Made by a program: the position numbers and the translations under genes
Assembly (NCBI RefSeq): GCF_000196615.1
Contig: NC_014306.1
Coordinates: forward strand, 1,550,001 to 1,614,000
Length of the DNA: 64,000 nt
Source: Erwinia billingiae Eb661
GTDB taxonomy: Bacteria > Pseudomonadota > Gammaproteobacteria > Enterobacterales > Enterobacteriaceae
Direction: 5' to 3'
Notes under the pieces: generated by a model
Databases searched by the model: none
What the model saw: only the letters and a program-made list of their open reading frames with translations
Told to the model about the DNA's origin: nothing
Part shown: one piece after another, positions 49,184-61,191 of the stretch
Layout: every line of letters starts with the position of its first letter
Numbering within the stretch: position 1 is the first letter of the stretch

Positions 49184-49355
49184 GTTCGATCACAAAACTT
49201 TCTGTCTGTGGTGAATTTCATCTCAGGCGAGGTGGCGGCGGGCTTCAGGGCCGGATCCGCGTGGTGACTGGGCTGGTGGTGTTTTTAATCGAGGCGCGGG
49301 TCGTGCGCTATTCTGAAGCATGCTGCTCCATTGCAGTGCAGTGGTTGCCCCTCAG

Positions 49356-49367
49356 ATGTATATACAT
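49356..49367. promoter_or_regulatory. HutC-like operator upstream of hutC
   Basis: ATGTATATACAT is a perfect twelve-base palindrome 54 bases before the hutC ATG, consistent with autoregulation. Confidence 0.65.
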
Positions 49368-49420
49368 TTGGGTGGGTTAACAGTAAACTGGCGAAAGTAT
49401 TTTCATTAAGGAAGCAATTT

Positions 49421-50176
49421 ATGGTCGAGCAGACTGCCATTTCTCAACTTTCAGCCGCCATGAGCGATCAGCCTGCGCCGATTTATCAGCGGGTGAAGCA
49501 GGCGATCGTCAGCCAGATTACGGAAGGCGTTTGGAAGTCGAATCAGCGGGTGCCGTCTGAGAGCGAGTTGGTGAATGAGCTTGGCGTCAGCCGGATGACC
49601 ATAAATCGGGCGTTGCGTGAGCTGACCAGCGAAGGCTATTTGATCCGCATGCAGGGCGTCGGCACCTTTGTGGCCGAGTCGAAAGGTTACACGGCGATGT
49701 TGGAAGTGCACAATATTGCCGAGGAGATTGCTCAGCGCGGGCATCGCCACAGTTGCAAGATTGTGGCATTACGGGAAATCAAAGCCGATCCTGAGCAGGC
49801 CTCGGTATTGGGTTTGAGCACCGGTAATGCGGTGTTCCATTCGGTGATTGTGCATTTCGAGAACGATCTGGCCGTTCAGTTGGAGGACCGGTTGGTGAAT
49901 CCGCTGGTGGCGCCGGATTATTTGCAGCAGGATTTCACCGCGCAAACCCCTTACACCTATTTGATGCGCGTCGCGCCATTAACGGCGGGTGAGCACATTG
50001 TCGAAGCGGTATTGCCGAATCGTCAGCAGTGTACGTCGTTGGCGATAGAGGCCAATGAACCCTGTTTGTTAATCCGTCGTCAGACATGGAGTGACGCGAA
50101 GATCGTGACCTACGCCAAGCTGTTGTATCCCGGCTCGCGATATAAGTTGCTGGGGCGTTTTAAGGGGCACGGCTAA
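49421..50176 (+). CDS. hutC: Histidine utilisation repressor HutC (first copy)
   Basis: A 251-residue GntR/HutC-family repressor: winged helix at residues about 18-85 (PAPIYQRVKQAIVSQITEG, then SESELVNELGVSRMTINRAL) and a UTRA ligand domain (about 95-245) that binds urocanate in known HutC. ATG 49421 follows AAGGA. It is divergent from hutHU and followed by a large repeat region rather than by hutD. A close paralogue is encoded 5 kb away. Confidence 0.95.
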   Translation: MVEQTAISQLSAAMSDQPAPIYQRVKQAIVSQITEGVWKSNQRVPSESELVNELGVSRMTINRALRELTSEGYLIRMQGVGTFVAESKGYTAMLEVHNIAEEIAQRGHRHSCKIVALREIKADPEQASVLGLSTGNAVFHSVIVHFENDLAVQLEDRLVNPLVAPDYLQQDFTAQTPYTYLMRVAPLTAGEHIVEAVLPNRQQCTSLAIEANEPCLLIRRQTWSDAKIVTYAKLLYPGSRYKLLGRFKGHG

Positions 50177-50185
50177 GTTTACTAA

Positions 50186-50280
50186 GGTCAAAACCGGGTT
50201 CGGTGTAAGTCTTCAGCCAGGGTCAAATTCGGCTTTGGTGTAAGCCTTCAGTCAAGTTCAAAACCGGGTTCGGTGTATGG
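50186..50280 (+). repeat. 35-bp tandem repeat array 1
   Basis: Three units start at 50186, 50221 and 50256, exactly 35 bases apart. The first unit opens GGTCAAAACCGGGTTCGGTG and goes on TAAGTCTTCAG; the second is a GGTCAAATTCGGCTTTGGTG variant. The third runs into structured element A. There are no spacers, so it is not a CRISPR. Confidence 0.85.
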
Positions 50281-50284
50281 CGTC

Positions 50285-50441
50285 CGCACAGAGCGGGTTA
50301 TCCGAGACGCCGTGAACCCATCCCTGGGGGCTTGGATGCCGCATCCTTGCGGCATACACTCGGCTAACCCGCTCTGTGCTACCGCCCGGTAACTTCAACG
50401 TTTATTGGGCGGTTTTGTGGATGCACAGGTCAAAACCGGGT
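50285..50441 (+). repeat. Structured palindromic element, copy A
   Basis: Outer arms CACAGAGCGGGTTA (50287-50300) and TAACCCGCTCTGTG (50365-50378) extend through an inner CCGAG/CTCGG stem. Inside lie two hairpins: GCC-GTGAA bulge-CCCA-TCCC-TGGG-GGC, and ATGCCGCA-TCCT-TGCGGCAT. After the outer stem a third hairpin ACCGCCC/GGGCGGT leads to GCACAGGTCAAAACC. The whole is non-coding. Confidence 0.8.
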
Positions 50442-50557
50442 TCGGTGTAAGTCTTCAGTCAAGGTCAAAACCGGGTTGGGTGTAAGTCTTCAGCCAAGGT
50501 CAAATTCGGCTTTGGTGTTAGCCTTCAGTCAAGGTCAAGACCGGGTTCGGTGTATAG
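50428..50557 (+). repeat. 35-bp tandem repeat array 2
   Basis: Four units start at 50428, 50463, 50498 and 50533, again exactly 35 bases apart, alternating the CGGGTTCGG and TTCGGCTTT variants. With copy B it forms a direct duplication of array 1 plus copy A, offset by about 277 bases. Confidence 0.85.
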
Positions 50558-50562
50558 CGTCC

Positions 50563-50720
50563 GCACAGAGCGGGTTATCCGAGACGCCGTGAACCCATCC
50601 CTGGGGGCTTGGATGCCGCATCCCTGCGGCATACACTCGGCTAACCCGCTCTGTGCTACCGCCCACTAACTTCAACGTTTTCGGATGCTTTGGTGAACGC
50701 ACAGGTCAAAATCCATCTGG
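50563..50720 (+). repeat. Structured palindromic element, copy B
   Basis: Nearly identical to copy A: outer arms at 50564-50577 and 50642-50655. The second hairpin loop is TCCC where copy A has TCCT. The third hairpin is degraded on its 3' arm. It ends in GCACAGGTCAAAA at about 50699-50711. Confidence 0.8.
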
Positions 50721-50734
50721 TTTTGACCTGTGCG
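50698..50734. repeat. Long palindrome joining copies B and C
   Basis: CGCACAGGTCAAAA (50698-50711 approximately) pairs with TTTTGACCTGTGCG over 14 bases around a short loop containing TCCATC. It is formed by the tails of the oppositely oriented copies B and C meeting head to head. Confidence 0.75.
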
Positions 50735-50870
50735 TCCCGAATTAACTATTCGACGCTGAAGCTGACGGGAAGGGAGAGAGGGGTGATAAGCAAAGCATCG
50801 GCGACAGGGATGTCGCCGCTGAGCCCCCAGGGATGGGTTCACGGCGACTTTGTGTTCACCCCTCTCTCCC
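50715..50870 (-). repeat. Structured palindromic element, copy C
   Basis: Read on the minus strand the element has outer arms built from GGGAGAGAGGGGTGA (50772-50786) and TCACCCCTCTCTCCC (50856-50870), unlike copy A in sequence but fully complementary. The core GCCGTGAACCCATCCCTGGG is unchanged, the second hairpin is CGGCGACA-TCCC-TGTCGCCG, and a TCCCG/CGGGA hairpin precedes GCACAGGTCAAAACC. Confidence 0.78.
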
Positions 50871-51016
50871 AGACCTTGCCACCAAGACACCCAGACGACT
50901 TACAGAATAGCAGCCACAAACTCTCCCTAACCTTGCCACCAAGACCCCCAAACGACTTACAGAATAGCAGCCACAAACTCTCCCAGACCTTGCCACCAAG
51001 ACACCCAGACGACTTA
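50864..51016 (+). repeat. 57-bp tandem repeat
   Basis: Units begin CTCTCCC at 50864, 50921 and 50978, exactly 57 bases apart, each with CCTTGCCACCAAGAC and (first two) GACTTACAGAATAGCAGCC. The first unit starts inside the outer arm of copy C. The third is partial. The period is a multiple of three and an open frame crosses it, but codon content gives no sign of a gene. Confidence 0.85.
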
Positions 51017-51031
51017 ACTCACCAACCCAAC

Positions 51032-51580
51032 CTATCTCTGCCTAATCTCCGTAAACAGCAACTCGGCGTCCGCCGATCCCGGTGCCAGCGGCTCACCGTT
51101 TTGCGGCCACCAGACGCCCTGACCCTGTTGCAAACGGCGGTCGCCAAGGACCCATTCTCCGGCTAACACATAGGCGACGCCGGCGGTTTCGGCGGCAGGG
51201 AAAATACTTTCGTTGACCACCCGCACCGCTGCCTGATGCGTTTCCCGCCGGGTCATCACGTTAAAGTCACTGCTTACGCCACCGATTAACCGTGACGCAA
51301 TCTCATCTTCACCCGCGAAAACAAATGGCTGATTACGCAACAACAGCTGCTGATACTTGCCACGGGCATTCAGCTCCACACCGTCGCCGTCCAGGAGCGT
51401 GATCACCCGATCGATGCCTGGAAACAGGGAAAAATCCCCGTCCTGAGCGATGGTGGCAATGCTGATGCGCCAGCTGAAGGCTTCGACGGAAGGCGGGAAA
51501 CTGATGATCTCTCGCGTTTCGCCGCCACCATTTCGCCAACGGCTGACCGGCAAGGTTTGCATGTCAAAGAAATGCATCAT
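51032..51580 (-). CDS. hutD: HutD family protein
   Basis: A 182-residue cupin-fold protein. The family opening WRNGGGETREI and the later core FSLFPGIDRVITLLDG are diagnostic for HutD. HutD is proposed to buffer urocanate or formylglutamate levels during histidine catabolism; it has no known catalytic activity. It overlaps hutF by four bases (ATGA) and is the last gene of that operon. Two adjacent ATGs are present. Confidence 0.92.
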   Translation of the reverse strand: MMHFFDMQTLPVSRWRNGGGETREIISFPPSVEAFSWRISIATIAQDGDFSLFPGIDRVITLLDGDGVELNARGKYQQLLLRNQPFVFAGEDEIASRLIGGVSSDFNVMTRRETHQAAVRVVNESIFPAAETAGVAYVLAGEWVLGDRRLQQGQGVWWPQNGEPLAPGSADAELLFTEIRQR

Positions 51581-60861: not shown

Positions 60862-61191
60862 AAGTGACTACATATGAACGCTCATGTCGGTCTTAAAACT
60901 TTCCCACCCAGCCACAATCTCCACAACAACGCCGAACCACGGAGCAGGTTTTGACCTGTGCAGCCACCCAGCTCCCCAACAACACAGAAGCTTAAGGGTG
61001 GCGGCATAGGGCACCTTAGCCGGGTGTATGCAGCAGGGATGCTGCATCCAAGCCTACAAGGATGTATTTACGGCGTCCCGGATAAGGTGCCCTATGTCGA
61101 CGCCGAACTACGGAGCAGGTTTTGACCTTTGCTGACGCCGTACCCCGGAACAGGTTTTGACCTGTGCCCTTAACCTCATTCCTCAAAAACC
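60862..61191. other. Repeat-filled gap between hutH2 and the flavin reductase gene
   Basis: 330 bases without a gene. About 240 of them belong to structured element D and its 33-bp units (listed separately). The first 65 bases after hutH2 show nothing clear. Confidence 0.7.
60929..61167 (-). repeat. Structured palindromic element copy D with 33-bp flanking repeats
   Basis: Outer arms CATAGGGCACCTTA (61005-61018) and TAAGGTGCCCTATG (61083-61096) are complementary but unlike those of copies A-C. Read on the minus strand it has CCGGG/CCCGG, then GCC-GTAAA-TACA-TCCT-TGTA-GGC, then TGCAGCA-TCCC-TGCTGCA, then GCCACCC/GGGTGGC and GCACAGGTCAAAACC. Three 33-base units at 60929, 61100 and 61135 each contain CAGGTTTTGACC, the complement of the 35-bp repeat head. 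Confidence 0.78.

Follow-up and report, generated by a model that had tools for sequence, protein, structure and literature searches.

What keeps a palindromic repeat foldable while its sequence changes? The question is raised by the 64,000-nt stretch of Erwinia billingiae Eb661 DNA analysed here (the window), which carries four copies, A to D, of a scattered, foldable DNA repeat family that is known but poorly understood. The original prediction left three options: a small RNA, a protein-binding hairpin or a mobile palindrome. The last two fit best, given target duplications in one related genome (G444) and the consensus of the loops, and the small RNA fits less well. Our results suggest, at slightly better than an even chance, that the element is a dual-site CsrA-binding RNA module that has spread as a miniature mobile repeat.

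Architecture and copy number in the window genome

The four copies have in common a 64-nt three-way junction with two hairpins, set inside outer arms that vary between copies yet remain complementary (Table 1). All four arm pairs are exact complements, as originally claimed. Two further claims hold in part: the third hairpin has its partner in copy A, whereas copy B has ACCGCCC (50658) without GGGCGGT, and the supposedly fixed tail GCACAGGTCAAAACC matches exactly in copies A, C and D and is altered in copy B. Copies A and B share 96% identity over 220 nt. Copies A to C lie between a hutC-like (49331-50176, +) and a hutD-like (51032-51580, -) gene that converge, and copy D lies between convergent histidine ammonia-lyase-like and flavin-reductase-like genes, all of them open reading frames (ORFs) with putative names.

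Tandem repeats adjoin the copies. The 35-bp direct repeats AGGTCAAAACCGGGTTCGGTGTAAGTCTTCAG (50185-50554) flank copies A and B, and the AGGTCAAAACC portion of the tail recurs within them. The first bases of the 57-bp tandem repeat (CTCTCCCAGACCTTGCCACCAAGACACCCAGACGACTTACAG..., 50864-51010) overlap an outer arm of copy C. A literature search for CATCCATG repeats gave nothing relevant among the matches listed.

Table 1 Features of the repeat copies in the window
Feature	Position	Strand	Remarks
Repeat block, 855 bp	50177-51031		between convergent hutC-like and hutD-like genes
35-bp direct repeats (AGGTCAAAACCGGGTTCGGTGTAAG...)	50185-50277		beside copy A
Copy A outer arm CACAGAGCGGGTTA	50287-50300		exact complement at 50365-50378
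Copy A core, 64 nt, A-type	50301-50364	-	R1 match 88.5 bits; two CANGGATG loops on minus strand
Copy A outer arm TAACCCGCTCTGTG	50365-50378		pairs with 50287-50300
Copy A accessory third hairpin ACCGCCC / GGGCGGT	50381-50413		without partner in copy B
35-bp direct repeats	50427-50554		separate copies A and B
Copy B outer arm	50564-50577		exact complement at 50642-50655
Copy B core, A-type	50578-50641	-	R1 match 91.2 bits
Copy B outer arm	50642-50655		pairs with 50564-50577
Copy C outer arm GGGAGAGAGGGGTGA	50772-50786		exact complement at 50856-50870
Copy C core, C-type	50790-50853	+	R1 match 88.3 bits; opposite to B, A/C composite with B
Copy C outer arm	50856-50870		pairs with 50772-50786
57-bp tandem repeats	50864-51010		adjoin copy C; two full copies and start of third
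Copy D accessory third hairpin GCCACCC / GGGTGGC	60963-61002
Copy D outer arm CATAGGGCACCTTA	61005-61018		exact complement at 61083-61096
Copy D core, A-type	61019-61082	+	R1 match 86.1 bits
Copy D outer arm	61083-61096		pairs with 61005-61018

BLAST with copy A returned 34 matches in the window genome, partial ones included, and a regular expression run over the fetched loci identified 33 full copies. From these 33 we built a covariance model of the 64-nt core, termed R1. A covariance-model search for further copies had been proposed with the original prediction; R1 found 34 copies in the window genome as strong matches, together with one weak match, and other genomes have further copies. By core sequence the 33 copies divide into 20 A-type and 13 C-type, and each of the 13 C-type copies is paired with an opposite-orientation A-type copy 218-288 bp away. 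The 34th copy (C3:3056365) is C-like by eye and has no listed partner. Counts on unique copies were made after duplicates with the same arms and core had been removed; none of the 32 unique copies of the window genome was placed inside an ORF by a crude ORF caller. Two steps of the analysis were based on 91 and 42 chosen loci.

Folding, covariation and loop sequence

Copies A, C and D, folded as RNA on both strands, gave -58.8 to -65.4 kcal/mol (z -4.8 to -7.7), and no shuffle among 200 folded as well. Among the 33 copies of the window genome, 98.9% of 560 core cells are paired against 86.2% after shuffling, pairing falls to 28-45% when the partner is slid, and changes on both sides number 69, where shuffles average 21. 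Of the five measures taken in these 33 copies, two were unremarkable: the count of pairs with at least one change on both sides, reached by 47 of 500 shuffles, and that of further pair types, reached by 354 of 500. In 103 distinct rows from other genomes, an alignment fitted to the model and hence leaning towards it, 95.6% of 2044 cells pair against 69.2% shuffled, both-side changes number 535 against 145, and sliding the partner takes pairing down to 26-50%. The outer arms, which lie outside the model, pair above the 95% point of between-copy arm exchanges in 130 of 140 unique copies. The paired compensatory change claimed at the outset is borne out, with covariation far above shuffles both within the genome and across other genomes.

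Covariation alone is no proof of selection at the RNA level, because long DNA palindromes may also stay matched through templated correction. The main rival explanation, which we consider fairly unlikely, is that the element works as DNA: the palindrome would fold as single-stranded DNA or as a cruciform and be recognised by a transposase, a recombinase or an architectural protein, and the arms would be kept complementary by this recognition or by templated (quasipalindrome) correction instead of an RNA function. It ranks as the main rival chiefly because the core stems are nearly free of G-U and the neighbouring genes show no strand preference. In the core stems of 107 copies, a count that omits cores not 64 nt long or without the loop A and GA (letters fixed by choice), there are 13 G-U, 5 A-C and 1874 Watson-Crick pairs; once per genus, the G-U asymmetry of 11 to 5 is not significant. 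RNA stems usually carry more G-U, and the near-absence of core G-U, set against this general norm rather than a control family, hints at a constraint at the DNA level. That these stems are almost purely Watson-Crick speaks for the DNA-level reading.

A role as DNA does not predict the G-U excess in the outer arms. On the strand that reads GGA, the arms hold 284 G-U against 159 A-C raw. Counted once per genus the figures are 172 to 135 (p 0.04), and 21 genera favour G-U against 8 with 9 ties (p 0.024), both p-values ignoring the remaining relatedness; a symmetric score was used, and arm alignments below 19.5 were dropped. The asymmetry is reversed in the Ysr224-like genus g8 (4 to 6) and, by distinct pairs, in the window's own genus (11 to 15, though 36 to 21 raw).

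The loops, originally described as fixed, are better read on the opposite strand, on which both are C-A-N-GGA-N-G; the final A-T 'pair' of each loop is not kept as a pair. New here is that both loops, some 20 nt apart, fit CANGGANG, the CsrA/RsmE consensus, which makes them candidate CsrA sites by sequence. A-N-GGA stands in both loops of 185 copies out of 194 unique ones, which represent 38 genera, and is absent from the first loop in 8 and from the second in 1. The GGA motifs are spaced 22-25 nt start to start, 23 nt in 138 of the 185. Of the 194 copies, 157 have two occurrences of the stricter CANGGANG and the other 37 have one.

Since the model might favour its own loop, we repeated the search with the loop open, using a pattern that fixes only AGCC and TTNACGGCGT on the flanks of an open 12-nt gap. 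The 150 listed matches are first places per genome only; three outer pairs close a hairpin in 123 of them, which come from 22 genomes, and 119 of these hairpins contain CANGGANG, whose C and G belong to the hairpin criterion and whose A and GGA do not. About six of the 27 dropped matches, those without three outer pairs, resemble one-mismatch modules, and the rest look like chance. With each genome and sequence counted once, 54 of 55 distinct hairpins keep the loop A, and the base facing it is T in 31, C in 16, G in 5 and A in 3. A fixed A facing a varying base is not the behaviour of a stem pair, and the CsrA/RsmE consensus fits it. A DNA-level role predicts neither this invariant A nor two equal loops at the distance of a CsrA dimer.

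The RsmE/CsrA consensus is given as A/U-CANGGANG-U/A (PMC5864733) and the CsrA SELEX consensus as RUACARGGAUGU (PMC7652899); the latter source describes CsrA dimers as bridging two sites separated by 10-63 nt, with distances above 18 nt the most favourable. The element has CANGGANG in hairpin loops and two such sites within 10-63 nt. Two features count against the CsrA-binding reading. Most of the SELEX hairpins have four or fewer pairs (PMC7652899), against seven in the longer stem of the element, and conservation extends to the junction and bulge (AGCC, TTNACGGCGT), beyond what CsrA binding alone requires. A CsrA match was found in 46 of 50 carriers and in 189 of 224 non-carriers (274 genomes); the carriers without one are G204, G265 and G296 (67-88% complete) and G391 (98% complete, inferred from absence among the listed matches). 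The window genome has CsrA. Such co-occurrence does not discriminate, and neither supports nor sinks the CsrA idea. On balance, binding of CsrA by the RNA is probably, by a modest measure, the reason for the loops, and our confidence was slightly lowered because the arm asymmetry is absent in the window's genus by distinct pairs.

Distribution, gene context and mobility

To describe the distribution of the element, we searched samples of the window's order, class and phylum. Carriers are 44 of 197 genomes and 16 of 80 genera in the order sample (E <= 0.01), 50 of 274 genomes and 44 of 222 genera in the class sample (E <= 0.001), and 16 of 299 genomes in the phylum sample (E <= 1e-4), all 16 from the window's class, members of which that sample itself includes. 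Copy numbers in these large samples are lower bounds, because few candidates were scored per genome. Within the window's genus, 22 of 37 genomes have 1 to 91 matches and 15 have none, and a match number ranging from 0 to 91 in one genus is in keeping with a mobile DNA element. Exact-pattern carriers among the matches listed include Stenotrophomonas, Xanthomonas, Marinobacter, Microbulbifer, Alteromonas, Shewanella, Vibrio and Ectothiorhodospira. The 5-Mb genome G444 has 472 exact junction-pattern matches (234 + 238) with one loop left open, and a reversed-pattern control in it gave 0. Presence in this share of the sampled genomes of the class, one with so many exact matches, is new here. Copy A had no BLAST matches in plasmids, nor did copy C have any in E. 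coli genomes or phages. In G750, matches at C1:2268347-2271965 are regularly spaced, about 431-496 bp apart, which suggests a tandem array of a longer unit.

A crude ORF caller placed 64 of 194 copies between convergent genes, 43 in antisense tandem, 32 in sense tandem, 29 inside an ORF and 19 between divergent genes, with 7 unassigned. Placement at 3' ends is clear in the window genome, with 21 of 32 unique copies between convergent genes, and in G126, with 12 of 14; neither has a divergent copy. One possible explanation, improbable in our view, is a bidirectional 3'-end element whose stable hairpin terminates or protects convergent transcripts, as proposed for ERIC/YPAL, with the loops incidental. 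The convergent placement by this crude caller and the very stable folds argue for it. However, the 19 divergent and 29 intragenic calls in the full set argue against it, and it leaves the conservation of loops and junction unexplained. Among the 194 copies we saw no preference of the neighbouring genes for the GGA strand (32 same-sense against 43 antisense pairs). This lack of a sense-strand bias favours a DNA-level role and, with the near-absence of core G-U, counts against a purely RNA-level one.

For the hutC-hutD junction, 16 relatives were chosen from the 36 in the genus set. A hutC match is present in 14 of them at 75-83% identity, and hutD follows hutC in 13 of the 14 fetched loci; by extrapolation from the BLAST ends, the gap is about 0-10 bp in 10, about 100 bp in two and about 560 bp of a different repeat in one. 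The comparison displays all of the 14 primary loci except L222. The module is at the junction in none of the 14 fetched relatives (best 14.1 bits, E 0.21), as a mobile DNA element would predict, and this is most simply read as a gain of the 855-bp block in the lineage of the window. In L220 (G742), about 560 bp of different tandem repeats occupy the same convergent junction, which suggests that this junction may attract repeats.

In G444, 8 of 19 fetched copies lie in a MITE of 165 bp (164 bp in a single case) whose inverted ends are 17 bp long, and all 8 copies with both ends are bordered by 9-bp target duplications, 5 exact and 3 with one mismatch. Another 5 of the 19 lie in a 184-185-bp repeat with other ends and the same core, and the remaining 6 fit neither type. 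The core therefore travels in different vehicles. Its occurrence in repeats with different ends, and the nine-bp duplications in eight copies, are new here. A MITE body with target duplications is what a DNA-level element would show, but one end-recognising transposase is inadequate as its agent, because the same core sits between unrelated ends in one genome; nor was a transposase recognised by eye beside or between copies in the ORF lists of three loci. Mobile spread is evident in G444 and likely for the window copies. In the window genome, the boundaries of the element are obscured by tandem repeats.

A proposed model and relation to described families

We then propose a model for the element as a CsrA-binding RNA. 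The unit would be the 64-nt three-way junction, with two hairpin loops some 20 nt from each other, both reading CANGGANG on the same strand, and the outer arms, free in sequence and strictly complementary, would hold it. Once the region is transcribed, presumably on the relevant strand and most often at the 3' end of an adjacent gene, the element would act as RNA, and its two loops would bind one CsrA (RsmA/RsmE) dimer. This binding may titrate CsrA or mark the transcript; any benefit is putative. Spread would be that of a miniature non-autonomous mobile element, in some hosts within MITEs. It is tempting to speculate, with rather less than even confidence, that the element is a transposable CsrA sponge: an old two-site CsrA/Rsm module of Gammaproteobacteria, moved among unrelated miniature transposons, multiplied into the hundreds and the same thing as YPAL, Ysr224 and TwoAYGGAY. 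If so, mobile elements would tune, or shelter behind, the global post-transcriptional regulator of their host.

The window element almost certainly belongs to one superfamily with YPAL/RU-2, Ysr224 and TwoAYGGAY, and these three appear to be one family. They look like one because relatives from two other genomes pass the Rfam cut-offs: L074, whose source belongs to the window's family but to a different genus, reaches 82.4 bits for Ysr224 (cut-off 70), and L067, from another family, scores 43.8 bits for TwoAYGGAY (cut-off 43) on the same strand as R1. A mobile palindrome, a Yersinia sRNA and a candidate structured RNA, kept separate in the literature consulted, thus look like one module; our search of literature records and excerpts found no paper uniting the three.

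The original prediction matched the element to no named repeat, ERIC and BIME included, and took a direct match to a described family as the outcome that would count against it. Such a match exists. RU-2, which is YPAL (Yersinia palindromic sequence, ~168 bp), is printed from Y. pestis in Table 1b of PMC2759123, and by eye against copies C and D it shares the core: the GCGCCAAGGATGGCGC hairpin, the GAGCC linker, the TACATGGATGTA hairpin and the TTTACGGCGTC bulge and junction are as here. Like the window element, YPAL is dispersed, intergenic and multicopy, and YPAL is mobile (PMC2229807); its targets span or adjoin dyad symmetry (PMC2229807), a point in favour of a role as DNA. This account draws on excerpts of PMC2229807, PMC2759123 and PMC2267715. 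The window element differs from YPAL/RU-2 in its outer arms and flanks, in the opposite-orientation pairing of A and C subtypes (218-288 bp) in its genome, and in the 35-bp and 57-bp tandem repeats that adjoin its copies.

At the curated Rfam cut-offs no family matches at the window repeats. Matches to miRNA, HCV, IMES and Acido-1 families at the E-value threshold were taken as chance. Elsewhere in the window, at 1923-2011, Peptidase-S11 RNA (RF03039) scores 58.7 bits against a cut-off of 34.8. For Ysr224 (RF02770), copies A to C score 26.8-34.3 bits at a loose threshold, below the gathering cut-off of 70, the highest being copy C (34.3 bits, minus strand); copy D, scanned at the cut-off only, gave no match. 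The Ysr224 model spans hairpins, junction and outer stem, as in the window element, and its Rfam strand is the complement of the CsrA-like one. Ysr224 is multicopy and expressed in Yersinia ruckeri according to PMC12112432, where the strand is not given. This expression and the Rfam strand would suit an antisense-type small RNA whose UCC loops pair with the Shine-Dalgarno GGA of mRNAs. We regard this as very improbable: it predicts neither the fixed A and G flanking two free positions nor the dimer spacing, and the overall strand asymmetry of the arms points the opposite way.

TwoAYGGAY (RF01731) has no match in the window at its cut-off of 43, and none for copies A to C at E <= 10. Its two hairpins with A-N-GGA loops within a poorly conserved outer stem are as in the window element, and two such hairpins are present in all four window cores. 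PMC2864571 reports it from human gut, gamma-Proteobacteria and Clostridiales as 'probably' a biological RNA and probably not cis-regulatory; its entry there, in contrast to our description of the window element, does not name it a mobile repeat. The CsrA idea is not new for TwoAYGGAY, since PMC4333381 had already predicted such binding.

REP/BIME elements and GTAG/CGTC palindromes are likewise short palindromic repeats, often in opposite-orientation pairs (PMC3733652). We rejected REP families with these tags as a match: the same source describes them as single stem-loops with an unpaired tag, in contrast to the two-hairpin three-way junction of the window element.

The CsrA sponges CsrB, CsrC and RsmXYZ likewise have CAGGA(U/A/C)G-like sites in loops at a spacing that suits a dimer, and CsrA-binding sRNAs, Aln1a-c, are described in Alteromonas (PMC5864184). 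If the loops of the window element bind CsrA, carriers, whose copies number from tens to hundreds, would have, in addition to CsrB/CsrC, a dispersed and rapidly changing supply of CsrA sites, and mobile elements would take part in a global regulatory circuit. CsrB, CsrC and RsmXYZ are described as dedicated sRNA genes, CsrB with many sites, whereas the window element is a two-site dispersed repeat.
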